From the NCBI RefSeq assembly GCF_900114605.1, contig NZ_FOTP01000001.1, positions 496,001 to 560,000 on the forward strand: DNA of 64,000 nt. Reading direction: 5' to 3'. Below are positions 4,469 to 30,464 of the stretch, piece after piece. Source of the DNA: Bradyrhizobium sp. NFR13. GTDB lineage: Bacteria > Pseudomonadota > Alphaproteobacteria > Rhizobiales > Xanthobacteraceae. A model generated the notes under the pieces. It saw only the letters and a list, made by a program, of their open reading frames with translations, was not told where the DNA came from and ran no database searches. Each line of letters begins with the position of its first letter. Position 1 is the stretch's first letter. Position numbers and translations under genes: made by a program.

Positions 4469-4799
4469 CACAGTTAAGTCCCCAGCCTTCAAAAGTTAGG
4501 GTTTCATTAGGTTTGGCGGATGACGGCTGGATGACGAATAACGCACAGGCGCTAACCCGCAGGCGATCTGCTGACGTCTCCTGTCGACTGGTGCAACATC
4601 GCAACGGTGCAGACCGACAACATCTCCTTCCAGAGTTGTAGCAGAGGGGCACAAATGACAGGGCCGATGGAGGAGCGTCTTTGAACGTATTCCGCGCCAG
4701 CTGCGACCAACCCGTGCCGCGACATGCCTGCGGTCCCTGCTCTGTGGCCGCATGATCGGCTACGCTGCGGGTTTGATGGTTTCTTTTGGGGGTTCTTAC
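4469..4799. other. Divergent promoter region between autotransporter and lemA
   Basis: About 330 bases separate the autotransporter start from lemA. Short frames run through it, but none has a convincing start or family resemblance. It must hold the promoters of both divergent units. I see no clear operator or riboswitch. Confidence 0.5.
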
Positions 4800-5360
4800 A
4801 TGTCGACCGGTTGGATCGTTCTTGGCGTCATCGTTGTCCTCGTCTTCCTGGCATTTGCTGCCTACAACCGGCTGGTCGCGCTGAGCCAGCGGGTCAACCA
4901 GTCCTTTGCCGATATCGACGTGCAGCTCAAGCAGCGCCACGACCTGATCCCGAACCTGATCGAGACCGTGAAGGGCTATGCGGCGCATGAGCGCGGCACC
5001 CTCGACGACGTCATCAAGGCGCGCAATTCGGCGATGAATGCACAGGGCCCGGCGCAGGTCGGCGCCGCGGAAAACCAGCTCTCCGGCGCTCTCGGCCGGC
5101 TGATCGCGCTGTCTGAAGCCTATCCGGACCTCAAGGCCAATGCGAACTTCCAGCAATTGCAGACCGAGCTCTCGGACATCGAGAACAAGATCGCCGCCTC
5201 GCGCCGCTTCTTCAACAATGCCGTCTCTGAATACAACACCGGCATCCAGCAGATGCCTGCGGCCTTGTTCGCCAGCACCTTCGGCTTCCATTCGAAGGAG
5301 TTCTTCGATCTCGGCGAGACCCGCAAAGAGGTCGAAGCCGTGCCGCAGGTCAAGTTCTGA
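4800..5360 (+). CDS. lemA: LemA family membrane protein
   Basis: LemA family protein of 186 residues, the usual family length. One N-terminal membrane helix (residues about 4-21, GWIVLGVIVVLVFLAFAAY) is followed by the conserved long helical domain with NRLVALSQRVNQSFADID, KQRHDLIPNLIETVKGYA and the C-terminal FFDLGETRKEVEAVPQVKF. GGGGG lies seven bases before the ATG at 4800. An in-frame ATG 48 bases upstream has no such site and is rejected. The gene is 26 bases before an M48 peptidase gene, a frequent pairing, so the two are probably an operon. The molecular role of LemA is not settled. Confidence 0.92.
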   Translation: MSTGWIVLGVIVVLVFLAFAAYNRLVALSQRVNQSFADIDVQLKQRHDLIPNLIETVKGYAAHERGTLDDVIKARNSAMNAQGPAQVGAAENQLSGALGRLIALSEAYPDLKANANFQQLQTELSDIENKIAASRRFFNNAVSEYNTGIQQMPAALFASTFGFHSKEFFDLGETRKEVEAVPQVKF

Positions 5361-5386
5361 TCACGGCCTGAACCGAGCAGCGCATC

Positions 5387-6535
5387 ATGGCCGCCTATGG
5401 TCTCTATACGCATATCGCCTCGAATAAGACGCGTTCGATGCTGCTGCTCGCAGGGCTGTTCCTGCTGATCTACGTCATGGTCTTCGCCGGCGCCCTGATC
5501 GGCGAGGTCGTGGTCAACGGCAACGGCTCGGTCGCCTATTACATCAACGCTGCAACACGCGACCTGATCAAGGCGCTTCCCTTCGCCACCATCGGCGCAG
5601 TGCTGTGGATCATCATCGCTTATTTCGGTCATCAAAAGATGATCGACAGTATCACCGGCAGCGAAAGCGTGACGCGGCAGGAGCAGCCGCGACTCTATAA
5701 TCTCCTCGAGAATCTCTGCATCTCGCGCGGCATCCCGATGCCGAAGCTGAAGGTGATGGAGTCAGATGCGCTGAACGCCTTCGCCACCGGCCTCAACCCG
5801 CGGCAATATGCGATCACCGTCACCACCGGCCTGATGCGCGGGCTGAACGACGACGAGATGGAAGCGGTGCTCGGCCACGAGCTGACGCATATCCGCAACG
5901 GCGATGTGCAGCTGATGGTGGTCGCCGTCATCATCGCCGGTGTGGTCGGCTTCGCGGCCGAACTGTTCTTCCGGATATTCATCAATTCCGGTTTCCGCTT
6001 CGGCGGCCGCTCCTCACGCTCGTCATCGTCATCGAGCGACAACAAAGGCTCCGGCGGCGGCGCAGTCATTGTGATCATCATCGCCGTGGCGCTGATCGCG
6101 CTGGCCTGGGCATTGTCGCTGGTGGTGCGCTTTGCGCTGTCGCGCTCGCGCGAACTACTGGCGGATGCGGGTTCGGTGGAGCTGACCAAGAATCCCGACG
6201 CCATGATCTCGGCACTGCGCAAGATCGAGAACCACGGCGAACTGCCCGGCGCGACATCGGCGGTCATGGAGATGTGCATCGACAACCCCCGCGAGGGATT
6301 TGCCGACCTGTTCGCGACGCATCCTTCGGTGGATTCACGCGTCGCTGCATTGGTGAAATTCGCCGGCGGTCACGATCCCGGGCGGCTGGCGCTGCCATCT
6401 GATACGGACGCAGCAGAGGCTCCAAACGGCACGGAAACGCCGCCACCGCCGCGCTCCGGCCCATGGAGCGACAATGCCGCGCCTACGGGCGGCGCGCAGG
6501 AGCCACTACCAGGCCCTTGGGGCCGTCACGCCTGA
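5387..6535 (+). CDS. M48 family (HtpX-like) membrane zinc metallopeptidase
   Basis: Inner-membrane zinc protease of 382 residues. Membrane helices lie near residues 18-40 and 65-85, with two more around 175-195 and 225-250. The zinc motif is HELTH at residues 164-168, and the third ligand region SRELLADAGS is near residue 255. Between the later helices sits a low-complexity Ser/Gly loop (GGRSSRSSSSSSDNKGSGGG). The C-terminal 60 residues are Pro/Ala-rich. It follows lemA directly. By analogy with HtpX it would act in membrane protein quality control; that is inference. It converges on the next gene with only 8 bases between. Confidence 0.9.
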   Translation: MAAYGLYTHIASNKTRSMLLLAGLFLLIYVMVFAGALIGEVVVNGNGSVAYYINAATRDLIKALPFATIGAVLWIIIAYFGHQKMIDSITGSESVTRQEQPRLYNLLENLCISRGIPMPKLKVMESDALNAFATGLNPRQYAITVTTGLMRGLNDDEMEAVLGHELTHIRNGDVQLMVVAVIIAGVVGFAAELFFRIFINSGFRFGGRSSRSSSSSSDNKGSGGGAVIVIIIAVALIALAWALSLVVRFALSRSRELLADAGSVELTKNPDAMISALRKIENHGELPGATSAVMEMCIDNPREGFADLFATHPSVDSRVAALVKFAGGHDPGRLALPSDTDAAEAPNGTETPPPPRSGPWSDNAAPTGGAQEPLPGPWGRHA

Positions 6536-6543
6536 CGCTTGTC

Positions 6544-7176
6544 TCAGTTGGTGGATTTGCGCAGTTCGAGCGCTTCCGTCTTTTCCGGCTCCGGCGTCTT
6601 CGCAATTTCCTTCGCGGGCTCGGACTTGATCGATCCGACAGCTTCGATCTTGCTGCTCTCGACGCGCGGGGTCGAGACGCGGGTCACCGTATTGTCCGCA
6701 CCGGCGGAGGCGTCGGCCGAACGGGTTGTTGACGGCGCGCGCAGCGAGCGCGGCGCGGACAGCGAGCGGGCCATCAGCATCTGGCCGCGGCCGCCCTGGT
6801 GGCGGAAATCGCAATAGGCGAAGCCCATGCCGGAGACCGAGCCACGGAAGCTGCGCTCGTCATTCTTGTTGAGATTGAAGCACGGCTCGAACGGGATGCC
6901 CTTGATCGAGGCGCAGATGGATTCACCGCGTACCTGGAGCGTGTTGCCGGGCAAACGCATGTTGCGCGCCGGACCCGAGCCTGAGAACTGCACCGCGCCT
7001 GCGGCACCGCCATCATCGAACACGCGGCCTGCGCCGCGTGTGCCGTCGAAACAGGTGAAGGCAAAGACCTTGCCGGCGACGAACTTGCGGGCCTCTTCGG
7101 CCGTCATCGACCCGGCCAGCGCGGGGGTCGCCACCGTGGCGGCGATCACCGCTCCCAACACATAACGCGCAACCAT
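6544..7176 (-). CDS. Exported hypothetical protein with C-terminal Lys/Glu-rich tail
   Basis: A 210-residue protein with a signal peptide (MVARYVLGAVIAATVATPALAG). A compact domain of about 115 residues contains four cysteines (FTCFDG, ESICASI, EPCFNL, AYCDFRH), which could form disulfides in the periplasm. The last ~75 residues are low-complexity, rich in Ser, Ala, Lys and Glu. GGAG lies 8 bases before the ATG. I do not recognise the family. It converges on the M48 protease gene and lies about 120 bases downstream of the reductase gene on the same strand, with no evident operon. Confidence 0.7.
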   Translation of the reverse strand: MVARYVLGAVIAATVATPALAGSMTAEEARKFVAGKVFAFTCFDGTRGAGRVFDDGGAAGAVQFSGSGPARNMRLPGNTLQVRGESICASIKGIPFEPCFNLNKNDERSFRGSVSGMGFAYCDFRHQGGRGQMLMARSLSAPRSLRAPSTTRSADASAGADNTVTRVSTPRVESSKIEAVGSIKSEPAKEIAKTPEPEKTEALELRKSTN

Positions 7177-7301
7177 AGGATACTCCGAACAACCGAGCGC
7201 GGATGATCACCAGAAGTGACCGCCAGATGTCTTTACCCGCTGCTTACCATACCAACCGTGGCAACAATGGAGCAGGTTGGTTGGTAAAGTCTGAACGTGG
7301 T

Positions 7302-8291
7302 TTAGCCGATTTTTACCACGATTCGCCCGCGGACCTGCCCGGCCAGAACCTTGGCACCGGCGTCGATTACCTGGTCCAGCGTGATTTCCTGAGTGATTTC
7401 AGCGAGTTTGGTATGATCCAGATCGGTCGCCAGCCGCGCCCAGGCCTGCTTGCGCAGCTCGATCGGGCACATGACAGAATCGATGCCGAGAAGACACACG
7501 CCGCGTAAAATAAAGGGTGCAACCGAGGATGGCAGGTCCATGCCGGCTGCGAGACCGCAGGCGGCGATGGCGCCGCGATACTTCGTCATCGACAGGAGAT
7601 TCGCGAGGGTGGTCGAACCGACGCTGTCGATGCCGCCCGCCCAGCGCTCCTTTGCCAGCGGCTTGGCCGGGCCGGACAGCTCGTTGCGGTCGATGATCTC
7701 GCTGGCGCCGAGACTCTTGAGATAGCCCTCCTCCGAGGTCCGGCCGGTCGAGGCGATGACCTGGTAGCCGAGCTTCGACAGTACGGCGATCGCGACCGAG
7801 CCGACGCCGCCGGCCGCCCCCGTCACGACGATCGGGCCGTCCGCCGGCTTCAGCCCATGATTCTCAAGCGCCAGCACGCTGAGCATTGCCGTGTAGCCGG
7901 CGGTGCCGACCGCCATGGCATCGCGGGTGGTCATGCCGTCCGGCAGCCGCACCAGCCAGTCGCCTTTCACGCGGGTCTTTTCGGCATAGGCGCCGAGATG
8001 GGTCTCGCCCATGCCCCAGCCATTGCCGATCACCTTGTCGCCGGGCTTCCAGTTCGGATTGGAGGAGGCTTCCACCGTGCCGGCGAAATCGATGCCGGCG
8101 ATCATCGGAAAGCGGCGCACGACTGGCGCCTTGCCGGTGACGGCGAGGCCGTCCTTGTAATTCACCGTGGACCACTCGACCCGTACGGTGACGTCGCCGT
8201 CCATGAGTTCGGTTTCATCGAACTGCGTCAGCGCAACCGTGGTGCCTTTGTCAGCCTTATCGATGCGGACAGCCTTGAACGTTCCCAACAC
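7302..8291 (-). CDS. YhdH/AcuI-type NADPH-dependent oxidoreductase (MDR family)
   Basis: Medium-chain dehydrogenase/reductase of 329 residues, without the zinc ligands, of the YhdH/AcuI group. AcuI members reduce acrylyl-CoA to propionyl-CoA with NADPH. Seen are the substrate-domain segment [26 protein letters not shown], the nucleotide-binding [10 protein letters not shown], and a C-terminal [13 protein letters not shown] at 8291 is chosen as start because GGGAG lies five bases upstream and the family begins there (TFKAVRIDK). The reading frame stays open 39 codons further up, but that part has no family character. The physiological substrate here is not shown. Confidence 0.85.
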
Positions 8292-8358
8292 GAGTCTCCC
8301 GAATTTTGCTTGTGATTTCTGCTGTCGAATTATGCCGTGCCGTGGCGGGAAACGCCAC

Positions 8359-8405
8359 CCGCTACGGCCACTCCAGAGCTTTGCAGCCCTGCCCGGCCGT
8401 AGCGG
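8359..8405. repeat. Long inverted repeat between reductase and ribH
   Basis: CCGCTACGGCC and its exact complement GGCCGTAGCGG stand 25 bases apart just after the ribH stop on the minus strand. Smaller GGCG/CGCC pairs lie beside them. It could end ribH transcription, although there is no clear T-run. Confidence 0.5.
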
Positions 8406-8426
8406 CATAACGCGCCAATTGTGGGA

Positions 8427-8963
<537 letters not shown>

Positions 8964-9020
8964 TCAGGACGTACGGTCACACGCCGGGCATCCGCTTGAG
9001 GCGGTGACCCTGCGCATACC

Positions 9021-9167
9021 CGTTCTCTTTCATCCGGACTATGACCGTCGGCTCCGGCATCGCACCGGATCTGCTGACCCTGAAGGTTGGACCCGTCAGG
9101 CGCTCGCGGGCTCCCGGGCTTGCGCCCGATTACCGCCGGTGGGGATTTTCACCCCGCCCTGAGAACG
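9021..9167 (-). promoter_or_regulatory. FMN riboswitch (RFN element)
   Basis: On the minus strand, 85-230 bases upstream of ribH, the sequence matches the RFN aptamer. The closing helix pairs CGTTCTC at the 5' end with GAGAACG at the 3' end. Inside are the conserved GGCGGGGTGAAAATCCCCACC, GGCGGTAAT, CCCGCGAGCGCC, GACGGGTCCAACCTT, GGTCAGCAGATCCGGTG, CCGGAGCCGACGGT and AGTCCGGATGAAAGAGAACG segments. It binds FMN and represses the downstream gene. The ~85 bases between aptamer and start would carry the expression platform; a simple terminator is not obvious there, so control of translation is possible. Confidence 0.97.
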
Positions 9168-9243
9168 AAGGCCGCTCCGGTTGGAGCGGCCAGTAACAAT
9201 TTTCATCGCTGGAGGTCAGCGAGTCAACGCCGGGAAATGCAGA

Positions 9244-10497
9244 TCACGCCGGCTGCGCAACCGCCCGCTCGACCGGCTTCTCGACGATTGGCAGATTGAT
9301 CAGCGCCGACAACACACCAAACAGCACCGACAGCCACCACACCGGCGTGTAGGAGCCAAACTTGTCGAACACAATGCCGCCCAGCCAGGCGCCCAGGAAG
9401 CCGCCGACCTGATGGCTGAAGAAGGCAAAGCCATACAGTGTTGCCAGCCAGCGGGTGCCGAACATCAGCGACACCAGGCTTGATGTCGGCGGTACGGTGG
9501 AGAGCCAGGCAAGCCCGCTGATGGCGCCGAAGACGAGCGCCGAGGTGGTCGTCAGCGGCAGCATGATAAAGGCCACCGTCGCCAGCGCGCGGGTGAAGTA
9601 GATGAAGGAGAGGATGTAGCGCTTCGGCAGTTTGCCCTGCACATAGCCGACCGTCAGCGAGCCGATGATGTTGAACAGGCCGATGATGGCAATCACCCAG
9701 CCGCCCACAGCCGCCGGCAAGCCGCGATCGACCAGATAGGCCGGCAGATGCATGGTGATGAAAGCGAGCTGGAAGCCACAGGTGAAGAAGCCCAGCACCA
9801 GGAGCACATAGGAGCGATGGCCGAAGGCTTCCGTGAGTGCGCTCTTGAACGACTGCTTCTGCGCCACCGGCGCGTCGGCGGACGCAGCACTCGCGGTCGG
9901 AGTCGCCAACGCAAGCGACAACGGGATCACCAGCAACATCAGCACCGCGAACACCGTGAGCGTCGCCTGCCACCCGGTGTTGTCGATCATCGCCACTGTG
10001 AAAGGCGCGAAAATGAACTGGCCGAACGAGCCTGCGGCGGTGCCGGCGCCGAGCGCGATGCCGCGCCATTCCGGCGGCACCAGTTTGCCGAAGGCGGACA
10101 GCACCAGATTGAACGAGCAACCCGACAGGCCAAAACCGATCAGCAGTCCAGCGCTGATATTCAGCTCGAGCGGTGTCGAGGAATAGCGCATCATCAGCAA
10201 ACCAGCCGCATAGAGGAAGGCGCCGATGCAGATCACGCGCACGCTGCCGAACTTGTCGGCGACGGCGCCGGCGAAAGGCTGGCCGATGCCCCAGAGCAGG
10301 TTTTGCACGGCGAAGGCGAGCGCGAAAACGTCACGACCCCAGCCGAACTCCTGGCTGAAAGGCTGCATGAAGAAGCCGACGCTGGAACGCGGCCCGAAGG
10401 TCAGCATGCCGATCAGCGATCCGCAGATGATGATCACCAGCGGCGTACGCCAGCCCAAACCAGATGCCGGGCGCGTCGCGCCGTCAATTGCCGCCAT
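9244..10497 (-). CDS. MFS transporter (OxlT/monocarboxylate-type)
   Basis: Twelve-helix major facilitator of 417 residues. Signature stretches include LLWGIGQPFAGAVADKFG (motif A-like loop), GLSGCSFNLVLSAFGKLVPP, and in the second half GSLTVGYVQGKLPKRYIL and HQVGGFLGAWLGG. These resemble the oxalate/formate and monocarboxylate branch. The start at 10497 follows GGGGAAACGAC; a possible start 11 codons upstream lacks this. It stands alone on the minus strand between the riboswitch and a terminator, so the substrate cannot be read from context. Confidence 0.85.
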   Translation of the reverse strand: MAAIDGATRPASGLGWRTPLVIIICGSLIGMLTFGPRSSVGFFMQPFSQEFGWGRDVFALAFAVQNLLWGIGQPFAGAVADKFGSVRVICIGAFLYAAGLLMMRYSSTPLELNISAGLLIGFGLSGCSFNLVLSAFGKLVPPEWRGIALGAGTAAGSFGQFIFAPFTVAMIDNTGWQATLTVFAVLMLLVIPLSLALATPTASAASADAPVAQKQSFKSALTEAFGHRSYVLLVLGFFTCGFQLAFITMHLPAYLVDRGLPAAVGGWVIAIIGLFNIIGSLTVGYVQGKLPKRYILSFIYFTRALATVAFIMLPLTTTSALVFGAISGLAWLSTVPPTSSLVSLMFGTRWLATLYGFAFFSHQVGGFLGAWLGGIVFDKFGSYTPVWWLSVLFGVLSALINLPIVEKPVERAVAQPA

Positions 10498-10705
10498 GTC
10501 GTTTCCCCGGATCAAATTCGGATTGAACATTCAGCCGGCCCAAGAGCGCAAGCCCGGTCCGGATTGGACGGGAGATTAATGCATTCGCATGGAAATCCCA
10601 ATGGCGATGATGGGGATTTCGGGGGATGCATTGCTGGGATGCAGGGCCACGCAGACGTCATCACAGCCCAGGGTCGGGATAACATTCTGCGGAATCCGGA
10701 ATGAA

Positions 10706-10735
10706 AAGAGCGATGCCGGGCATGGCATCGCTCTT
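10706..10735 (-). terminator. Rho-independent terminator of the cell wall hydrolase gene
   Basis: A perfect 12-bp stem (AAGAGCGATGCC / GGCATCGCTCTT) with a 6-base loop is followed on the minus strand by TTTTC. It lies 28 bases past the stop of the hydrolase gene. Confidence 0.8.
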
Positions 10736-10763
10736 GGCAGGCTCGGAGGTAAAGTCGTGGCTG

Positions 10764-12218
10764 TTACGGCTTGATTTCGGAGAGCTTGGCGGAGATTTCC
10801 GCCGTCTGCGCCGCAGTGCCCCAGCTTGGTGCTTCGCTGCCGTCGCCCCAGTTACGTGGGCGATAGAAGGAGTGCACGCCGGTCTTATACATCTTCTTCA
10901 TCTCGCGGACCCAGGACGGGTGCACCCAATAGGCATGGTAATGTGTGGACTTCGCGACTTCCGGCAGCCAGATCCGGCCGTCCAGCGTCGCCTTCGCGAT
11001 CTTGCGGGCGCGCTCCCACATATCCGGCTCTTTCACGACATCCGGAATGCCGTCGCAGGCGAAGGTGAACTGGCAGGCCAGGCGGCGATGCTTGTTCTGA
11101 TAGACCACGCCGCAAACTGTCGTGGGATAGAAGCCCGAGAACACGCGGTTCATCACCACCTGCGCCACCGCCATCTGGCCACGTACCGCCTCGCCGCGGG
11201 CCTCAAAATAGATGGCTTCCGTCAGACATTTTTCCTGCTTGCCGCGGGTCTGCTCGGTGAGGCCCATACGTTCGGCCGGCGTCTTCGCACGCTGATTGGC
11301 GCTGTTGACCTCGCCTTTGCCGGCAACGCTTTCGCCGCCGTCGGTCGGGTTGATCGCCGCATTCGGCACCACCGCCGTAGCCTTCATGTCCGGGTCGAGG
11401 CTTGAGCCCGGCATGGCCATGCCGGACACGGCTGTGCCTGGCATTACGATGGTCGGCTCTTCGCCGGGCTGCCAGCGTTCCATTGTCTCGACCGATGCGC
11501 CAAGCGACGAGCTACCGAAAAACAGGCTCGCGGTTTTCACAGAGAAGCCGTCCTTGGCCGGCGCCGGCTCGACGGGGATTACCGCTGCATCGGTCTTGGC
11601 GTCCTCGGTGGGCTGCACAGGCTGCGATGTGTCGTATTGAGCGAGCGGCGGGGCACGCAGCGCTTCATCGAGTTCGGGATCGAGCGGGGCATGCTGCACG
11701 GCCGGCAGTGCATCGACGGTCTTCGCGCCCATCACCGATCTGTTGTCGTCGAATAAATCCTGTCTGGCCGGCTCATCGGGCGCCACGATCTCCGGCGCGC
11801 GGATGGCGAGGCGATCGCCTTTCAGCGAGCGATCCACTTTCGGAAAATCGGCGGCTTCATAGCGGCGGGGCGGCTGCGCCAACGGATTGCGGGTCAGTGC
11901 ACCGGTGATGTCAGTCAGCGCTCCGCTGGCGGCGATGCCGGAATTGTCGAGGCTGGCGAGTTGCAAGGTCGGATTGCGCGAGGCCGTGCCCATTGGGCGA
12001 CCGAACGAGAATGTCGCAACCTGGATGGAGGAGACGGCGGGCGCGAACACGCGCTTCTGCCAGCGTTCGGTCACGCCCGGCTGGCGAGCCAGCAGCGAGG
12101 CGATGTCCTGATAGCCAGATTCTGTCGGGGCCAATGCGAAAACGCAGAGACCGAAGCCGAAGAACGCGCCACGCGCGCCCTTCGGCCGGTTACGCAGTAC
12201 TAACATCGATACGCTCAC
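10764..12218 (-). CDS. SleB-type cell wall hydrolase with long N-terminal region
   Basis: A 484-residue envelope protein ending in a Hydrolase_2 (SleB-like) domain, residues about 330-455. Members cut peptidoglycan. Seen are LTEAIYFEARGE, with the likely catalytic Glu, then GQMAVAQVVMNRV, CGVVYQNKHRR, CQFTFACDG and STHYHAYWVHPSWV. A hydrophobic segment near residues 18-33 (GAFFGFGLCVFALAP) can serve as anchor or signal. Residues 35-320 are low-complexity, Pro/Ala/Asp-rich, and probably disordered. The start is uncertain: GTG at 12218 or ATG at 12206. It is transcribed alone with its own terminator. Confidence 0.85.
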   Translation of the reverse strand: MSVSMLVLRNRPKGARGAFFGFGLCVFALAPTESGYQDIASLLARQPGVTERWQKRVFAPAVSSIQVATFSFGRPMGTASRNPTLQLASLDNSGIAASGALTDITGALTRNPLAQPPRRYEAADFPKVDRSLKGDRLAIRAPEIVAPDEPARQDLFDDNRSVMGAKTVDALPAVQHAPLDPELDEALRAPPLAQYDTSQPVQPTEDAKTDAAVIPVEPAPAKDGFSVKTASLFFGSSSLGASVETMERWQPGEEPTIVMPGTAVSGMAMPGSSLDPDMKATAVVPNAAINPTDGGESVAGKGEVNSANQRAKTPAERMGLTEQTRGKQEKCLTEAIYFEARGEAVRGQMAVAQVVMNRVFSGFYPTTVCGVVYQNKHRRLACQFTFACDGIPDVVKEPDMWERARKIAKATLDGRIWLPEVAKSTHYHAYWVHPSWVREMKKMYKTGVHSFYRPRNWGDGSEAPSWGTAAQTAEISAKLSEIKP

Positions 12219-24131: not shown

Positions 24132-25142
24132 GTGGCGGTGATTGTTCCCTTCGAGAGTCACGCGACAGCGTCGATCGACCAGTTGGTCAGCCTTGTCGCC
24201 CCTGACATGGAGCGCGTCAATGCGACGATCCTGTCGCGGACCGGCTCGGAAGTCACCATGATCCCCGAGGTTGCCAACCACCTGATCTCCTCGGGCGGCA
24301 AGCGACTGCGCCCGATGCTGACGCTCGCGATGGCCAATCTCACCGGCTACACCGGCGATGGCCATATCAAGCTCGCGGCCTCCGTCGAATTCATGCACAC
24401 CGCGACGCTGTTGCATGACGACGTGGTCGACCAGAGCGAACTGCGCCGTGGCAAGCTGTCGGCGCGGATGCTGTGGGGCAACGAGGCCAGCGTACTCGTC
24501 GGCGACTTCCTGCTCGGCCAGGCCTTCCGCATGATGGTCGAAGTCGGCTCGCTGCGCGCGCTCGATATTCTATCCTCGGCTGCCGCCACCATCGCGGAGG
24601 GCGAAGTGATGCAGCTCGCCGCCGCCAAGAACACCGCCACCACCGAAGACGAATATCTCGCGGTCATCCGCGGCAAGACCGCCGAACTTTTTGCCGCCGC
24701 CTGCGAAGTCGGCCCGGTGATCGCGAACCGCCCGAAGGCCGAACAGACCGCGTGCCGTTCGGTCGGCATGAATCTCGGCATCGCCTTCCAGCTCATCGAC
24801 GACGTGCTCGACTACGGCGGCAAGGCCGCCAAGCTCGGCAAGAATGTCGGCGACGATTTCCGCGAGGGCAAGATCACCCTGCCCGTGGTGCTCGCCTTCC
24901 GCCGCGGCAACGACGCCGAGCGCGAATTCTGGATCAAGGCGCTGGAGCGCGGCGAGATCGGCGAAGGCGACCTCGATCACGCCATCGGCCTGATGACCAA
25001 GCACCGCGCACTGGAAGACACGATCAACCGCGCCCAGCATTACGGCGCCATGGCCGTCGATGCGCTGGCGCTTTTTCCGTCGTCACCGATGAAGACTGCA
25101 CTGGAGCAGGTCGTGGCGTTCTGTCTGGCACGGACGCACTAA
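24132..25142 (+). CDS. ispB: Polyprenyl (octa-/decaprenyl) diphosphate synthase
   Basis: Trans-prenyltransferase of 336 residues that builds the ubiquinone side chain from FPP/GGPP and IPP. Both aspartate-rich motifs are present: DDVVD (in ATLLHDDVVDQSELRRG) and DDVLD (in FQLIDDVLDYGG). GGKRLRP is the IPP-binding segment. The start is GTG. Rhizobiales mostly make Q-10, so the product is probably decaprenyl diphosphate; this is inference. Its last 100 bases recur in degenerate form 2.6 kb downstream (27644-27754), which bears on how the following cassette arrived. Confidence 0.93.
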   Translation: MAVIVPFESHATASIDQLVSLVAPDMERVNATILSRTGSEVTMIPEVANHLISSGGKRLRPMLTLAMANLTGYTGDGHIKLAASVEFMHTATLLHDDVVDQSELRRGKLSARMLWGNEASVLVGDFLLGQAFRMMVEVGSLRALDILSSAAATIAEGEVMQLAAAKNTATTEDEYLAVIRGKTAELFAAACEVGPVIANRPKAEQTACRSVGMNLGIAFQLIDDVLDYGGKAAKLGKNVGDDFREGKITLPVVLAFRRGNDAEREFWIKALERGEIGEGDLDHAIGLMTKHRALEDTINRAQHYGAMAVDALALFPSSPMKTALEQVVAFCLARTH

Positions 25143-25151
25143 GGCCAGACC

Positions 25152-26153
25152 TCACTGCACCGCGATGACCACCTTGCCCTTCGCGCGGCCGGTCTCGACA
25201 TAGGCCAGCGCATCCCCGGAGTTCTCGAACGGGAACACCTTATCGACGACCGGCCGGATCACGCCGGCTTCGATCAGGGACGTAATCTCGCTCAACTGCT
25301 GCCCCTGCGCGCGCATGAACAGGAATGAATAGCGTAGGCCGAGGCGCTCGGCTTTTTTCCTCACGCCACGGCTCAGCAGACGCATGATCAGTTTCAGGAA
25401 CAGGTTCAGACCGGCTTCCTTGGCGAAAGCCGGATCGGGCGGACCGGAAATGGAAATGAGCTGGCCGCCCGGCTTGAGCACACCCAGAGATTTATCGAGC
25501 GTCTTTGGATCCTGACTATTCAGCACAAGATCGTAGCCCGACAGGACCTTCTCGAAGTCCTGCGTCTTGTAGTCGATGACCACATCCGCCCCGAGACTTT
25601 TGACCAGTTCGGCATTCTTTGCACTGGTTGTCGTCGCAACTGTAGCGCCGAGATGCTTGGCGAGCTGGATTGCAAAAGTCCCGACACCACCGGAGCCGGC
25701 CTGAATGAAGACCTTCTGGCCGGGCTTCACCTTGCCCACTTCGACCAGCGTCTGCCACGCCGTCAGCCCCACCAGCGGGATGGATGCCGCTTCCGTCATG
25801 CTTAAGTTTTTCGGCTTCAGCGCCACGTCAGCTTCATTGATGGCGATGAATTCGGCGAATGTACCGACCCGATGATCGCGCGGCCGCGCATAGACTTCGT
25901 CGCCCACCTTGAACCGGCTGGCCCTGGATCCTGTCCTGACAACCGTTCCGGCGACGTCGTGACCCAGGATGAAAGGCGGACGATAGGGAAGAATAAGCTT
26001 GAACTCTCCATCCCGGAGCTTGGAATCCAGCAGGTTCACAGCTGTGGCGTGAACCCGGACCAGAACATCAGTGTCCTGCACTTCCGGTTCGGGCACGTTG
26101 GCCAGACGCAGAGCGCCCTTCTTTTTGTATTTATCAACGACGAATGCCTTCAT
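25152..26153 (-). CDS. NADP-dependent quinone-type oxidoreductase (zinc-independent MDR)
   Basis: A 333-residue MDR reductase. Visible are MKAFVVDKYKKKGALRL, ILGHDVAGTVV, the nucleotide-binding GSGGVGTFAIQLAKHLGA, and the terminal segment GDALAYVETGRAKGKVVI. Zinc ligands are absent. GGAGAAAG precedes the ATG. It lies 20 bases downstream of an alpha/beta hydrolase and is probably co-transcribed with it, divergent from an HxlR regulator. Such trios commonly deal with quinones, enals or other electrophiles. The whole cassette is bracketed by copies of the polyprenyl synthase 3' end. Confidence 0.88.
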   Translation of the reverse strand: MKAFVVDKYKKKGALRLANVPEPEVQDTDVLVRVHATAVNLLDSKLRDGEFKLILPYRPPFILGHDVAGTVVRTGSRASRFKVGDEVYARPRDHRVGTFAEFIAINEADVALKPKNLSMTEAASIPLVGLTAWQTLVEVGKVKPGQKVFIQAGSGGVGTFAIQLAKHLGATVATTTSAKNAELVKSLGADVVIDYKTQDFEKVLSGYDLVLNSQDPKTLDKSLGVLKPGGQLISISGPPDPAFAKEAGLNLFLKLIMRLLSRGVRKKAERLGLRYSFLFMRAQGQQLSEITSLIEAGVIRPVVDKVFPFENSGDALAYVETGRAKGKVVIAVQ

Positions 26154-26173
26154 GGGCTTTCTCCAATCTCAAG

Positions 26174-27049
26174 TTAGCAGCGGCGCCAATCGCTCAGAAA
26201 GGAAAGAGCCTTCGGCACGAAATCAGCGTGGTACTGGAATATCCCGCCATGCCCGGCGTCTTCGTAGATCACCAGTTGCGCTCCGGGGATGCGTTCGGCC
26301 AAGTCGGTGCTGTTCACAGTCGGGACCATGATATCGTTGTCGCCATTCGCGATCAGGACGGGGATCTTGATACGGCCGAGATCCTGAGGCGCCTGTCGGC
26401 CCCAGGCTTTGATTGCCTTGAGTTGCCGCAGGAAGGCGCCAGGAGTGGGGCCCTTGTCCCTGTCCGCCTTGCGTTCCTTCAACCGCTTCAGAAAGGCCTT
26501 CGCGGCCTGGCGACCATTGGCCGTAGATGTGAAAAACAGATACAATTTCGGGTCGCGTAGCGTCAGCAGACCCTTGATCATGAGCGGCCGGGACACCGCT
26601 CCGACCTTATCGATACCTTTGCCGCCCGCAGGACCGGTGCCAGTCAGGATGAGCTTTCGCACAAGACCGGGAGCCTTGAGCGCAACATCTTGCGCCACAA
26701 ATCCGCCGAGGGAAAAACCGAGCAGATCGACCTTCTCGAAACCCAGCGCCCGGATCAGCGCAATCGCGTCGCGCGCCATTTCGTCGATAGTCACAGGTGC
26801 TGTTCCGCCCGACGCACCGATGCCGCGATAGTTGGTCGCGATCACGCGGTGTTTGCTGGCGAGGCCGTCAACGATCCGCGGGTCGAAATTGTCCAGCACC
26901 GCGCCCCAATGATTGAGGAGAATGAGCGGCACGCCGCCCCGGGGGCCCAAATCTCGATAGGCAAAAGCAGTCCCCCCGACGTTGATGGAAAGATTGGGCG
27001 CCTCAATGTAGCGCGCGCCCGATCCGGCGTTGCCAGGAGCACTCGTCAT
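26174..27049 (-). CDS. Alpha/beta hydrolase
   Basis: A 291-residue alpha/beta hydrolase. The oxyanion region is VPLILLNHWGAVLDNFDPR, the nucleophile elbow is GFSLGGF, the acid is in VLIANGDNDIMVP, and the histidine is in YEDAGHGGIFQYH. No signal peptide is present. GGAG lies six bases before the ATG at 27049, favouring it over the ATG four codons upstream. First gene of the minus-strand pair, with the MDR reductase after it. The substrate is not evident. Confidence 0.88.
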   Translation of the reverse strand: MTSAPGNAGSGARYIEAPNLSINVGGTAFAYRDLGPRGGVPLILLNHWGAVLDNFDPRIVDGLASKHRVIATNYRGIGASGGTAPVTIDEMARDAIALIRALGFEKVDLLGFSLGGFVAQDVALKAPGLVRKLILTGTGPAGGKGIDKVGAVSRPLMIKGLLTLRDPKLYLFFTSTANGRQAAKAFLKRLKERKADRDKGPTPGAFLRQLKAIKAWGRQAPQDLGRIKIPVLIANGDNDIMVPTVNSTDLAERIPGAQLVIYEDAGHGGIFQYHADFVPKALSFLSDWRRC

Positions 27050-27161
27050 TGTTTGCTCCATTGCCGCAGCACCTGTGCTGTCGCCAACCCGACACGGCTG
27101 CGCTCTCCTGTACTCATCGCTTCTGCCTTCATTTTATCGTGGAACATCCTTGGAGACGATG

Positions 27162-27182
27162 TTACTATCGAATTAATAGTAA
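27162..27182. promoter_or_regulatory. Candidate HxlR-family operator
   Basis: A perfect palindrome, TTACTAT-N7-ATAGTAA, lies 24 bases before the HxlR start in the divergent promoter. It is followed by a smaller TAGT-N5-ACTA. TACTAT/ATAGTA half-sites are known for the YodB/HypR branch of HxlR regulators, so autorepression and control of the divergent pair is a fair inference. Confidence 0.65.
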
Positions 27183-27205
27183 GTCACTACTAAAAAGATA
27201 TCGAC

Positions 27206-27637
27206 ATGAAAAATCTTTCGGACCAGCCATGCCTGATTGCCCGGAGCCTTGCGGTAGTGGGGGACGCATGGAGCATGCTGATCATGCGCGACGCCCATGC
27301 CGGGCTGACCCGCTTCGATGATTTCCGCAAAAGCCTCGGTATCGCCCCGACAATGCTGACGGGGCGGTTGGCAGCCCTGACCGAGGAGGGGCTGCTGGAG
27401 AAACGCCGCTATTCCGACCGTCCGCCACGGGACGAATATGTGCTGACGGAAGCCGGCCGCGACTTTCTGCCGGTGCTGTTTGCGATCGGCGCGTGGGGAC
27501 GCAAGCATCGCGGCGGCGGCGAGGTAACCCGTTTCTTCGACGTCGAGACCGGAACGGAGATCGATCCCGTCACCATCGACCGTGCGACCGGCGCTCCGGT
27601 TGGAACGCGTCCCATTCGCGTTGCCGCACCTGACTGA
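27206..27637 (+). CDS. HxlR-family transcriptional regulator
   Basis: A 143-residue winged-helix protein. The family signature starts CLIARSLAVVGDAWSMLIMRDA, with the redox-relevant N-terminal cysteine position retained. Then come LGIAPTMLTGRLAALTEEGLL (recognition helix) and the wing RRYSDRPPRDEYVLTEAG. It is divergent from the hydrolase/reductase pair, with a palindromic operator between. Some relatives sense quinones, aldehydes or diamide through this cysteine; that would suit a reductase target. Confidence 0.92.
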   Translation: MKNLSDQPCLIARSLAVVGDAWSMLIMRDAHAGLTRFDDFRKSLGIAPTMLTGRLAALTEEGLLEKRRYSDRPPRDEYVLTEAGRDFLPVLFAIGAWGRKHRGGGEVTRFFDVETGTEIDPVTIDRATGAPVGTRPIRVAAPD

Positions 27638-27643
27638 GCCGGG

Positions 27644-27754
27644 CAGTATCGCGGCGCCATGGCCGTCGACGCGCTGGGCTGTTCCCGTCATCGCCGATGA
27701 AGACGGCGCTGGAGCAGGTCGTGGCGCTCCGCCTTGCTTAGACGGACCAAGGCC
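27644..27754 (+). pseudogene. Remnant of a second polyprenyl diphosphate synthase 3' end
   Basis: This stretch aligns with 25035-25146 (the ispB tail plus four bases past its stop) at 92 of 111 positions with one single-base gap, counted by hand. The gap breaks the frame. When restored, the copy reads PMKTALEQVVALRLA-stop (TAG ending at 27741), against PMKTALEQVVAFCLARTH in the intact gene. Several differences inside codons are synonymous, as expected between orthologues rather than in a recent duplication. No other part of the gene is present. Confidence 0.85.
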
Positions 27755-27769
27755 TCCTCACATAACCGA

Positions 27770-28660
27770 TCAAGCGACAGCGCGTGCTTTCCCCCGCGCC
27801 GCCTCGATATCGCGTACCGGCGGTGCACCGAACATGCGGCCATATTCCCGCGTGAATTGCGGCACGCTCTCATAACCGACGGCGAAGGCCGCGCTGCTCG
27901 CGGTCGCGCCCTCCCACAGCATCAGCCGCCGCGCCTCGATCAGGCGCAACTGCTTCTGAAACTGCAGCGGCGTGAGTGACGTCACCGTGCGAAAATGCTG
28001 GTGGAAAGACGACGGGCTCATGCCTGCGACATCTGCCAGGCGTTCGACCAGCACGGGCCGTGCGAATTCAGCACGCAACACCGCGACCGCGCGCCCGATA
28101 CGCTGCGCGTGGCTGTCCGGCCAGCCGAGCCGTCGGATCGCCGGCCCGTGGCGACCAGCCAGAAGCCAGTAGTGCATCTCGCGCACAAGCTGCGCGCGCA
28201 GCACCGGCAATGACGCCCGACGATCGAGCAAGCGCATCAGCCGCAACGCCGCGTCCGCAACTTCGGCATCGGTGGGCTCGACCCGGACACGCGCGAGATC
28301 GGCGCTTGGCTCCGCTTTCATCTCGACAACCAGTTCGGCGATCACGGCCAGATCAAGTTCGAACACCAGCGAGAGATAGGGCGCGGCAATGCTCGCCCGT
28401 GTGATTTGACTGACGATCGGAACATCGGCCGTGATGATCAGCGAATCCCCGGCGGCGAAGACAAAACTCTCCGTGCCCATGGTGACATGCTTGGTGCCCT
28501 GCACGACGAGACAGATCAGCGGCTGGAAGATCGCGTGGATAATGTCGCTGGGTGTGGTTGCGCGCACGGCAGCAAGGCCGAGGATCGGCGTGGTCGCGAT
28601 GCCGGCACTATCAGCATGGGCCTCTGTGTAACGGCGAACGGCATTGAGAAGCGTGGTCAT
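27770..28660 (-). CDS. AraC-family transcriptional regulator (AraC_N type)
   Basis: A 296-residue regulator with an N-terminal cupin-like AraC_N domain (residues about 20-160, including IFQPLICLVVQGTKHVTMG) and a C-terminal double helix-turn-helix (about 195-290). The latter has ERLADVAGMSPSSFHQHFR and AVGYESVPQFTREYGRMFG. It is divergent from an SDR gene. Regulators of this subfamily usually control an adjacent short-chain dehydrogenase or aldo-keto reductase, so the SDR is the likely target. Confidence 0.9.
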   Translation of the reverse strand: MTTLLNAVRRYTEAHADSAGIATTPILGLAAVRATTPSDIIHAIFQPLICLVVQGTKHVTMGTESFVFAAGDSLIITADVPIVSQITRASIAAPYLSLVFELDLAVIAELVVEMKAEPSADLARVRVEPTDAEVADAALRLMRLLDRRASLPVLRAQLVREMHYWLLAGRHGPAIRRLGWPDSHAQRIGRAVAVLRAEFARPVLVERLADVAGMSPSSFHQHFRTVTSLTPLQFQKQLRLIEARRLMLWEGATASSAAFAVGYESVPQFTREYGRMFGAPPVRDIEAARGKARAVA

Positions 28661-28793
28661 GACGCCCAGCCTACATCATCGCAAATGCGCCAGCACATGA
28701 TTTTGGAGGATTAGGCAAGGAACGTCGAGCTTCGGGCAACCAAGCCCGACTTCCCGGAGCGATATCGGAATGGTCACACCACAGGAGCTGACC

Positions 28794-29549
28794 ATGACCA
28801 AGATTACCCTCGTTACCGGCGCCAGCCGCGGTCTCGGCCGCAATACCGCTCTCAACATCGCCCGTCACGGCGGCGATGTCGTCCTCACCTATCAAAGCCG
28901 CAGCGAAGACGCACAGGCTGTCGTCTCCGAAATCCAGCGCATGGGCCGCAAGGCGGTGGCGCTGCAACTCGACACCGGCAAGATTGCCGGCTTCGCCGAC
29001 TTTGCTGGTCGTCTGCGAACAGCACTGCGCGAAACCTGGTCGCGCGAAACGTTCGACCATCTCGTGAACAATGCCGGACACGGGGATTATGCACTGATCG
29101 CCGATACCACCGAGGCGCAGTTCGATGGGCTGGTGAATGTCCATTTCAAAGGCGTGTTCTTCCTGACGCAGACACTGCTGCCACTGATCGCGGACGGCGG
29201 CCGCATCGTGAACCTGTCGTCCGGGCTGACCCGCATGTGCCTCCCCGGCTATGCTGCTTATGCCGCGATGAAGGGCGCCGTCGAGGTGGTGACCATGTAT
29301 ATGGCGAAGGAACTGGGCAGCCGCTGGATCACCGTGAACACGGTCGCGCCCGGCGCAATCGAAACCGATTTCGGCGGCGGTGCCGTGCGTAACAATCCGG
29401 ACATCAACAAGACGATCGCCGGCATGACCGCCCTTGGCCGCGTCGGCCTGCCCGACGATATCGGACCGATGATCGCGAGCCTGCTGTCGGAGGACAATCG
29501 CTGGGTGAACGCGCAGCGGATCGAGGTGTCGGGCGGACAGGGACTGTAG
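28794..29549 (+). CDS. Short-chain dehydrogenase/reductase
   Basis: Classical SDR of 251 residues. The cofactor motif is TGASRGLG at the N-terminus, then NNAGHG, the catalytic Ser in IVNLSSG, and Tyr-x-x-x-Lys in YAAYAAMKGA (Y-A-A-M-K). The C-terminal segment GRVGLPDDIGPMIASLLSEDNRWVNAQRIEVSGG is complete. AGGAG lies seven bases before the ATG at 28794. The substrate is unknown. It is followed by a hairpin and is divergent from its probable AraC regulator. Confidence 0.9.
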   Translation: MTKITLVTGASRGLGRNTALNIARHGGDVVLTYQSRSEDAQAVVSEIQRMGRKAVALQLDTGKIAGFADFAGRLRTALRETWSRETFDHLVNNAGHGDYALIADTTEAQFDGLVNVHFKGVFFLTQTLLPLIADGGRIVNLSSGLTRMCLPGYAAYAAMKGAVEVVTMYMAKELGSRWITVNTVAPGAIETDFGGGAVRNNPDINKTIAGMTALGRVGLPDDIGPMIASLLSEDNRWVNAQRIEVSGGQGL

Positions 29550-29618: not shown

Positions 29619-30464
29619 TTAAACTCGCGCGACCAATTCCTTGATCAGCGTCGTGATCCGCCCTGTCGGCGATTCCAGTTCTTTCATGATCGAGAAGTGA
29701 TCCGCGCCCGGGATCTCCTCATAGCTCACCGGCAGACCACGCTGCACGCGATGCGCGGCGAGGTCTGCGGTCTGCTGGCGCAGGATCGGTAATTCGCCGC
29801 CGCCGACCACCAGCGCCAGCGGCTTGTTCGGGCCGCCATCCTGCAGCAGCGGCGACTGGCGCTTCGACATCGCCTCGTCGAGCTTGAGCTTCTCGTTCAG
29901 ATAGGACGCACGGATCGGTTCGAGATCATAGATGCCCGAGATGGCGACGCCGCCCTTCACCTTCGGATGCGACAGCGTCGTTGAGGTCAGATGACCACCA
30001 GCGGACCAGCCGGACACCACGATGCGGTTGGGATCGCCGCCGAGCGACGGCAGCTTCTCGACGAGAGCATCAACACCGGCATGCATCTCGGCGACGATCT
30101 CGTCGAGCGTCGCATCCGGCGCCAGCGTGTAACCAATCGCGGCGACGTTGATGCCGTGGGCGATCGGACCTGCAGCGAAGCAGGTGAAGAAATCCTTCGA
30201 GCGCATCTGCCAGTAGCCACCATGGATCAGCAGCAGTGTCGGTCCGCCCTCGGCAGCCTTGATGAAATCCAACCTGTTGCGCTCGCGCGGGCCATAGGCG
30301 ACGTCGAGATGCGCGGGGTACTTCGCCTTCATGGCATCGGACCGCTGGCCCCATCCGGCGGCGATGTCGGCGCTGCCCGCAACAGCCGTACTGTTGTTGA
30401 GGCCTGCATCGAGCTGCTCGCGCGACATCGCGCGCCAGTTGGAATCGCCGAAAGGCTTACTCAT
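29619..30464 (-). CDS. Alpha/beta hydrolase of the arylformamidase/esterase type
   Basis: A 281-residue hydrolase. The oxyanion motif is LLLIHGGYW (HGG-x-W), the nucleophile elbow VVSGWSAGGH, and the catalytic His near the C-terminus in IPGADHFSIM. The HGGYW form and short length fit the kynurenine formamidase-like/BD-FAE group, but no tryptophan catabolic gene is adjacent. It is divergent from an amidase gene, so the two may act on related amide or ester compounds. Confidence 0.85.
   Translation of the reverse strand: MSKPFGDSNWRAMSREQLDAGLNNSTAVAGSADIAAGWGQRSDAMKAKYPAHLDVAYGPRERNRLDFIKAAEGGPTLLLIHGGYWQMRSKDFFTCFAAGPIAHGINVAAIGYTLAPDATLDEIVAEMHAGVDALVEKLPSLGGDPNRIVVSGWSAGGHLTSTTLSHPKVKGGVAISGIYDLEPIRASYLNEKLKLDEAMSKRQSPLLQDGGPNKPLALVVGGGELPILRQQTADLAAHRVQRGLPVSYEEIPGADHFSIMKELESPTGRITTLIKELVARV

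Follow-up and report, generated by a model that had tools for sequence, protein, structure and literature searches.

We found that three genes lying directly behind the polyprenyl diphosphate synthase gene ispB in a 64,000-nucleotide stretch of a Tardiphaga genome (the window) are an acquired insert, and that the second copy of the ispB 3' end beyond them is the scar of the insertion. The three genes code for a quinone oxidoreductase (QOR), an alpha/beta hydrolase (ABH) and an HxlR-family regulator. The conclusion rests on two cassette-free genomes of the sister clade, G010 and G012, in which no more than about 220 nt lie between ispB and the next conserved gene, ABH2 (29619–30464, minus strand; alpha/beta hydrolase-like, named by eye), the first gene of a conserved downstream block. 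A first-pass annotation had proposed such an insert between two ispB ends and had named a cassette present in all close relatives as evidence against it; the two empty sites bear the proposal out. Its forecast that ispB would adjoin the AraC gene in cassette-free genomes failed, since in G010 and G012 the gene at 29619 comes next.

The ispB gene and its second 3' end

The ispB-type gene of the window is complete (24132–25142, plus strand; PF00348, E 1e-73), and among NCBIfam profiles octaprenyl diphosphate synthase fits it best, with a score under that profile's cut-off. The last 108 nt of ispB recur 2.6 kb further downstream at 81% identity. A genome search with ispB returned one full copy and one partial copy (81%, E 1.2e-21), and comparison of the ispB end with 10.9 kb of downstream sequence gave a match with an E value of 5e-25. 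In the repeat search the duplication was resolved into two ungapped pieces, one of 34 nt (25035–25068 and 27644–27677, 88%) and one of 77 nt (25070–25146 and 27678–27754, 81%), which sum to exactly the 92 of 111 matches and one single-base gap counted in the first-pass annotation. The relic (27644–27754, plus strand) is a decayed second 3' end with a one-base deletion and no gene body upstream. Once restored, its frame reads PMKTALEQVVALRLA-stop, so the alternative C-terminus described earlier is present. The objection that the second copy might be part of another conserved gene does not apply. Bases that match before 27644 are few and may be the 3' flank of the HxlR gene itself, because an HxlR copy unlinked to ispB, in G003, likewise continues TGAGCCGC after the gene. 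A reading of the relic start, AGCCGC, as a sister-clade ispB allele was dropped, as it can be HxlR flank.

Over 400 kb of the window genome, four forward repeats were 60–700 nt long, at least 76% identical and 0.8–30 kb apart, and the ispB-end repeat was among them. When four repeats from the 400-kb search were inspected by eye, three looked palindromic or dispersed and the fourth was a GlnD-end repeat.

The cassette and its neighbors

The left junction (25143–25152) leaves fewer than 10 nt between the stop codons of ispB and QOR, and its bases look, by eye, like the 3' flank of a QOR copy that is not linked to ispB. QOR (25152–26153, minus strand; PF13602, PF08240) belongs to the quinone oxidoreductase/zinc-type alcohol dehydrogenase family; its best NCBIfam profile is quinone_pig3, with a score under that profile's cut-off. 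It is followed by ABH (26174–27061, minus strand; PF00561) and by the divergent HxlR gene (27206–27637, plus strand; PF01638, E 3e-19). A palindrome between the latter two, TTACTAT-N7-ATAGTAA (27162–27182), is a putative HxlR operator, and its arms are exact in seven of the 14 HxlR copies examined, namely the six ispB-linked ones and that of G003. An HxlR-domain regulator thus adjoins a quinone-reductase-family gene, with PF01638, PF13602 and PF08240 all above cut-off. The cargo is probably a stress unit under its own regulation, in which HxlR would bind this palindrome. Domain profiles revealed no transposase gene among the three cassette genes. Beyond the relic lie an AraC-family regulator (27770–28660, minus strand; PF06719, PF12833) and an adjoining SDR oxidoreductase (28770–29549, plus strand; PF13561), a separate variable pair that was seen only in G000, G009 and G016 when gene order was compared across Tardiphaga.

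Distribution of the cassette and of the relic

The cassette or a variant of it stands directly after ispB in six of 18 Tardiphaga genomes (G000, G009, G001, G002, G008 and G016); in the G016 variant ABH was not found and an SDR-like gene takes its place. The interval between ispB and ABH2 thus holds, depending on the strain, the QOR cassette, the G016 variant, the operon of G013 or nothing. G011, which has no cassette at ispB, holds a QOR-ABH pair elsewhere in its genome that is 90% identical. Outside Tardiphaga, no cassette was seen beside ispB among 80 loci (ispB sought at >60% identity in flanks of up to 8 kb). Within the genus the cassette has moved horizontally between clades: third-position identity between G008 and the window is 86, 78 and 84 for QOR, ABH and HxlR, and 53–76 for ispB and five neighbors.

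The relic was sought in 81 loci, of which four were too short and were dropped; the reverse strand served as the control and reached a maximum of 37.9 bits. Five of the 77 loci searched exceeded it, all in Tardiphaga: the window, G016, G009, G008 and G013, the last with a different insert. None of 62 loci outside Tardiphaga did so, and the best of them, G345, equaled the control maximum. With relics in these five loci alone, all in one genus, the idea of the ispB end as a family-wide insertion hotspot was rejected. Against the same control, G001 and G002 carry the cassette with no significant relic, and the empty sites of G010 and G012 show no relic trace above it.

The state of the relic accordingly ranges from nearly intact in G016 through decayed in the window to undetectable in G001 and G002. 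In G016, 10 of the 11 codons that differ from the strain's own ispB end are synonymous, with 2, 1 and 9 differences at codon positions 1, 2 and 3. The pattern is weaker in the window (7/3/10; nine synonymous codons and seven others). Compared with each other, the two relics differ by 7/2/5, much as decaying sequence would. Towards its end, the G016 relic is nearly equal to the upstream copies of other strains, as after gene conversion, and for this reason the synonymous pattern in G016 is not independent evidence.

Gene-end scars at other insertions

Elsewhere on this chromosome, too, insertions are enriched in gene-end scars. Comparison of G000 with G016 over 400 kb identified 11 insertions measuring 1 kb or more besides that at ispB. 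Gene-end repeats flank three of these 11, as against seven of 1100 random placements (two of the seven fall on the ispB repeat itself), although the wider flank windows that gave three of 11 were picked after a narrower first scan had given one of 11. The scars belong to an AHSA1-type gene (287 nt), a GlnD-like gene (68 nt) and an MFS gene (55 nt), and the differences at codon positions 1/2/3 at these three loci of the same chromosome region are 5/4/21, 0/1/6 and 4/1/5. Summed over four pairs they are 11/7/41, so that 41 of 59 differences are at the third position. Because the differences between copies sit mostly at third codon positions, as they do between orthologues, the pattern supports the view that one of the two ispB copies is an orthologue's tail. 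The orthologue-like tail proposed in the first-pass annotation is thereby strengthened by G016 and the three other scars, and less so by the window itself. The wider insertion scan thus adds weight to the orthologue-tail reading and takes weight from self-duplication.

A second insert behind ispB

In G013 a different, seven-gene insert occupies the same place after ispB and has its own ispB-end duplication, which begins at about nt 772 of ispB and runs 76 nt beyond the stop codon, whereas the relic of the QOR cassette measures about 110 nt. Because the two G013 copies share these 76 nt and are 98% identical over 120 nt, the insert is more readily explained by a duplication of the strain's own ispB end than by one of foreign origin. 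A search for five of the seven cargo genes in the other 390 genomes of the family gave one weak partial match and otherwise none that was close. The two independent inserts are weak evidence for a special site, since G000 and G016 differ by 11 insertions of 1 kb or more within 400 kb. Only about 17 kb of 400 kb are collinear between G013 and G000, too little for that comparison to be informative.

Mechanism and alternatives

The arrangement is probably best explained by gene import through homologous recombination guided by an orthologous ispB end. The incoming DNA would have carried the QOR-hydrolase-HxlR cargo joined to such an end, and recombination with it would have set the cargo immediately behind the ispB stop codon; the other junction would stem from end joining or from a single crossover of a circularized molecule. 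This would leave ispB whole, with the cargo behind it and, as a scar, about 110 nt of a second, truncated ispB end. ispB is essential; if this holds here, only events that leave a whole ispB would survive, and hence the end would be duplicated and not cut. We infer both this recombination route and the origin of the two ends in different lineages. Several observations count against the explanation: among the loci covered outside Tardiphaga there was no donor with ispB beside the cassette, G001 and G002 have the cassette but no significant relic, and G013 fits self-duplication.

The first-pass annotation had gone further, taking the upstream tail to be foreign, arrived with the cassette, and the downstream relic to be the native tail. 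We hold this to be possible, while leaning against it. At informative sites in the tail (892–1011) the window's clade matches G011/G007 at five and the sister clade at one, while across the remainder of ispB the counts are 10 and 18; the QOR-ABH pair of G011 points the same way. The AHSA1-type locus has just this pattern, its downstream copy being 92% and its upstream copy 83% identical to the empty-site G016. The GlnD-like and MFS scars show the opposite, with the gene-attached copy closer to the empty-site genome. In the tree of the ispB body the window's clade falls with the sister clade (99/95), and the rival grouping is rejected (p 0.004). Against the proposal, the best tree for nt 821–1011 keeps this grouping (66/77), although the alternative, 9.6 log units worse, is not rejected there (p 0.23). 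It also speaks against the proposal that both G016 copies end in ARTH, whereas G011 and G007 end in ARSH, though conversion could account for this. The relic has no fixed position on the ispB tree, 120 nt being too few to tell which copy is native.

If the insertion had made a long duplicate of the recipient's own target, through a staggered break with fill-in or through template switching, no foreign ispB would be needed. G013 speaks for this alternative, both in its shared 76 nt and 98% identity and in five searched cargo genes with scarcely a close match in the family, as do apparent matches of about 4 bp at the junctions, judged by eye. We nevertheless consider it unlikely for the window, where the event, like the three other scars, shows a third-position excess that a decaying self-copy should show less. 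It is very improbable that G010 and G012 once had the cassette too, as an ancestral feature, and lost it when the two ispB ends recombined with each other. Such direct repeats would permit loss, and G008, of the same clade as G010 and G012, has the cassette; but the G008 cassette is far closer to that of the window than the flanking genes are, which fits a later arrival, G011, G003, G005 and G017 are without a cassette at ispB, and the two empty sites lack any relic above the control. Least probable is a degenerate integrase-dependent island with the ispB 3' end as its attachment site. Gene 3' ends are classic attachment sites, and two different cargoes share this one; yet no match to the integrase family lies within 100 kb of ispB among those listed for six assemblies, each of one or two contigs, and the repeat limits differ between the window and G013, so that there is no constant attachment core. 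No gene supporting an integrase island or a transposon was seen for either the cassette or the G013 insert.

Guided import by homologous recombination, if it took place, would have left a natural series beside a housekeeping gene, from an empty site through a nearly fresh scar to a decaying one, and would represent gene gain without integrase or transposon. We also considered, as a rather doubtful generalization, that a sizeable share of small Tardiphaga gene insertions is guided by gene tails, in that cargo on an orthologous 3' end lands behind the gene, with no mobile-element enzyme involved, and leaves an orthologous tail. Cargo between two gene tails would then be homologous to the gene wherever it stands empty and could move by plain homologous recombination. 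If the scar enrichment holds genome-wide, such scars could help to recognize small horizontal gains whose mechanism is now invisible, and to orient and date them.

Comparison with known systems

The literature searched holds nothing on this ispB locus. Units in which HxlR regulates a quinone reductase are known, and the cassette resembles them in placing an HxlR regulator beside a quinone-reductase-family gene; it differs in being known from its sequence alone, with profile scores below equivalog cut-offs. Minimal mobile elements are alternative cassettes, free of mobility genes, that different strains carry at one position between two conserved genes; they spread by homologous recombination in those genes, on either side. 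The interval between ispB and ABH2, with its strain-dependent contents, fits the first part of this description, and the cassette has moved between clades. Unlike the locus described here, the concept uses homology on both sides, and to our knowledge a gene-end scar is no part of it. The term itself is used in PMC2649163. In the 3'-end displacement described for T6SS effectors and Rhs genes (PMC5361080), an incoming module that shares the upstream part likewise pushes the older gene end downstream, but the displaced immunity genes are kept there, whereas the relic decays here. Homology-facilitated illegitimate recombination, described in three competent species (PMC3240628), combines homology at one end with joining at matches of 3–10 bp at the other and a gain of cargo, much as the import route proposed here may do; in the account given there it generally deletes recipient DNA, whereas here recipient-type sequence is doubled. 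The same source describes single crossovers at E. coli lacZ that placed cargo between a gene end and a partial copy of it, with duplications of 109–950 bp. Those events involved an engineered plasmid with known homology, whereas the events at ispB are old and their incoming molecule is only inferred; the arrangement, with cargo between a gene end and its partial copy, is the same in both.

The cassette behind ispB is an insert

In the window, a stretch made up of the final 108 nt of ispB and about four extra bases (25035–25146) occurs again 2.6 kb downstream at 27644–27754. A repeat search matched the two copies at 92 of 111 positions with a gap of one base, and a genome search gave 81% identity. 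With an E value of 5e-25 in the local sequence downstream, the repeat is not a chance match, and the ispB-end duplication described in the first-pass annotation is real. Local repeats of this sort are rare (4 in 400 kb of the window's genome). The downstream copy, or relic, is frameshifted and lies between the stop codon of the HxlR regulator gene and an AraC gene. The three genes enclosed, coding for a quinone oxidoreductase (QOR), an alpha/beta hydrolase (ABH) and HxlR, all score above Pfam cut-offs.

We compared gene order downstream of ispB in 18 genomes of the genus Tardiphaga, the window's own (G000) included. In the window and in T. robiniae LMG 26467 (G009), ispB is followed by QOR, ABH, HxlR, relic, AraC, SDR, ABH2 (the first gene of a conserved block), amidase and MFS; in T. 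robiniae Vaf-07 (G001), Tardiphaga sp. P9-11 (G002) and MAG BWSM_99 (G008), by QOR, ABH, HxlR, ABH2, amidase and MFS; and in genome G016, by QOR, an SDR-like gene and HxlR, then an almost intact relic, AraC, SDR, ABH2 and further genes. ABH2 follows ispB directly in G010 and G012, and after seven different genes and a separate relic in G013. Neither cassette nor ABH2 was found downstream of ispB in G011, G003, G005 and G017 (at least 11.8 kb covered in each), and no cassette in the sequence 3' of ispB in G014 (3.7 kb) and G004 (0.6 kb). The contig stops less than 200 nt from ispB in G015 and G007, and G006 has no full ispB match. Thus, the cassette is an insert. The cassette-free site that had been predicted does exist (G010, G012), but its neighbor is ABH2 and not AraC, as AraC–SDR is variable too. 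This pair (27770–29549), seen in G000, G009 and G016 only, forms a second variable insert, stacked downstream of the cassette. In G016 (locus L035) the cassette hydrolase was not found, and the SDR-like gene occupies its place.

Movement of the cassette genes

Among the best 80 QOR loci of at least 554 relatives, ispB, sought at >60% identity so that a very divergent copy could escape, lay within the fetched flank at four, all Tardiphaga; at four Bradyrhizobium loci, HxlR adjoins QOR and ABH as in the window, without ispB. G011 carries a module of QOR, ABH, SDR and HxlR away from ispB, and the window and G016 cassettes each look like this module minus one gene. The G011 QOR copy (L054, 6666–7663) is broken across two frames near codon 267. 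Third-position identity between G008 and the window is 86% for QOR, 78% for ABH and 84% for HxlR, against 61% for S49, 53% for MTS, 76% for ispB, 70% for ABH2, 68% for amidase and 74% for MFS. A similar excess is seen in G011 for QOR (84) and ABH (77) and not for HxlR (59), and in G007 for HxlR (86) and not for QOR (67). These excesses indicate that cassette genes move within the genus, partly one by one. A palindrome before HxlR, TTACTAT-N7-ATAGTAA (27162–27182), occurs in exact form in 7 of the 14 copies and is a possible operator.

The ispB scar and its decay

The relic exceeded the reverse-strand control maximum of 37.9 bits in 5 of 77 loci: G016 (140 bits), the window (102), G013 (67.7 and 58.3), G009 (42.6) and G008 (42.6); among these 77 loci, those of G001 and G002 had none above the control. 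Compared with its own upstream copy, the G016 relic differs at 2/1/9 sites in codon positions 1/2/3 (10 synonymous codons, 1 other), and the window relic at 7/3/10 (9 synonymous, 7 other). Between the two relics there are 7/2/5 differences (6 synonymous, 6 other), as expected of decaying sequence. Over its last 48 columns, the G016 relic departs at two sites from its own upstream copy and at one site each from those of the window, G009 and G001, which suggests gene conversion.

The G013 insert (L041, about 5300–12100) holds seven genes unrelated to the cassette, including ABC transporter, TetR, creatininase, glutamine-synthetase-type and flavin-reductase genes, and has its own ispB-end duplication. 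Its two ispB ends have 120 nt in common at 98%, 76 of them past the stop, and a further 46 nt upstream at 89%; about 150 nt were lost from the relic between two similar short repeats. Five of the seven genes, compared with 391 family genomes, gave one weak partial match and no close match outside G013.

Gene-end scars elsewhere in the chromosome

G000 and G016 differ by 11 insertions of at least 1 kb over 400 kb. With narrow flanks, one had a long flanking repeat; the flanks were widened after the repeat list revealed a relic just beyond them, and three of the 11 then had a flanking repeat >60 bits (inverted control ≤31.6). Random placements at the same settings exceeded 60 bits in 7 of 1100 cases, two of them on the ispB repeat. 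All three repeats are copies of a gene 3' end. In G000, 287 nt of an AHSA1-type gene flank a 3.25-kb insert carrying amidase and TetR genes (L231, 7287–11836; contig C6, about 347.3–351.8 kb); this site lies some 170 kb upstream of ispB. In G016, 68 nt of a GlnD-like gene (L254, about 4000–6500) flank one gene without family match, and 55 nt of an MFS gene (L253, about 8800–11600) flank an EcKL-type kinase gene. The GlnD-like gene has its profile match on the upstream part, and its frame seems to shift before the end. Upstream and far copies differ at 5/4/21 (AHSA1-type), 4/1/5 (GlnD-like) and 0/1/6 (MFS) sites in codon positions 1/2/3; with the G016 ispB pair, 41 of 59 differences are at third positions. 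Both ispB inserts included, 5 of 5 scars found are gene 3' ends. Overall, the cassette at the window locus was acquired and bears a gene-end scar, and this chromosome has several such scars.

Origin of the two ends

The first-pass annotation took the differences between the two copies as a sign of an orthologue's tail, not of a fresh duplication, and suggested that the upstream ispB tail is foreign and came with the cassette, the downstream copy being the stranded native tail. The other scars of this chromosome lend support to the orthologue reading; either ispB end may be the foreign one. In the tree of the ispB body (1–820), the window falls with G009, G001, G016 and G002 in a clade whose sister group is G008, G010, G012, G013 and G015 (99/95); placing the window's clade with G011/G007 is rejected (p 0.004). 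The tail (821–1011) gives the same best tree (66/77), with the G011/G007 alternative not rejected (p 0.23). Informative sites favor the sister clade over G011/G007 by 18:10 before nt 892 and 1:5 after it. No tested placement of the relic was rejected at 0.05. At the AHSA1-type scar the far copy is nearer the empty-site genome (G016) and native-like, the upstream copy being divergent from G016; at the GlnD-like and MFS scars the copy attached to the gene is nearer the empty-site genome. A single crossover could place the donor end upstream or downstream alike, and would therefore suit both arrangements.

Comparison with known systems

In G005, G010, G011, G013, G016 and G017, none of the tyrosine-recombinase matches listed lay within 100 kb of ispB. 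According to passages of PMC3240628, single crossovers in E. coli produced gene-end duplications of 109–950 bp, and three competent species are known to import DNA through homology on one side. Illegitimate recombination has been proposed as the source of much small-scale variation (PMC2884548, in part), and PMC5361080 (excerpts) puts forward gene-end displacement at Vibrio T6SS and Rhs loci. The literature searched, as listings and passages, held no account of insertions in this group being flanked by gene-end scars. The duplications in the portion of PMC3784515 consulted are much larger than those here, and the closest named concept in these sources is that of minimal mobile elements (PMC2649163, in part).
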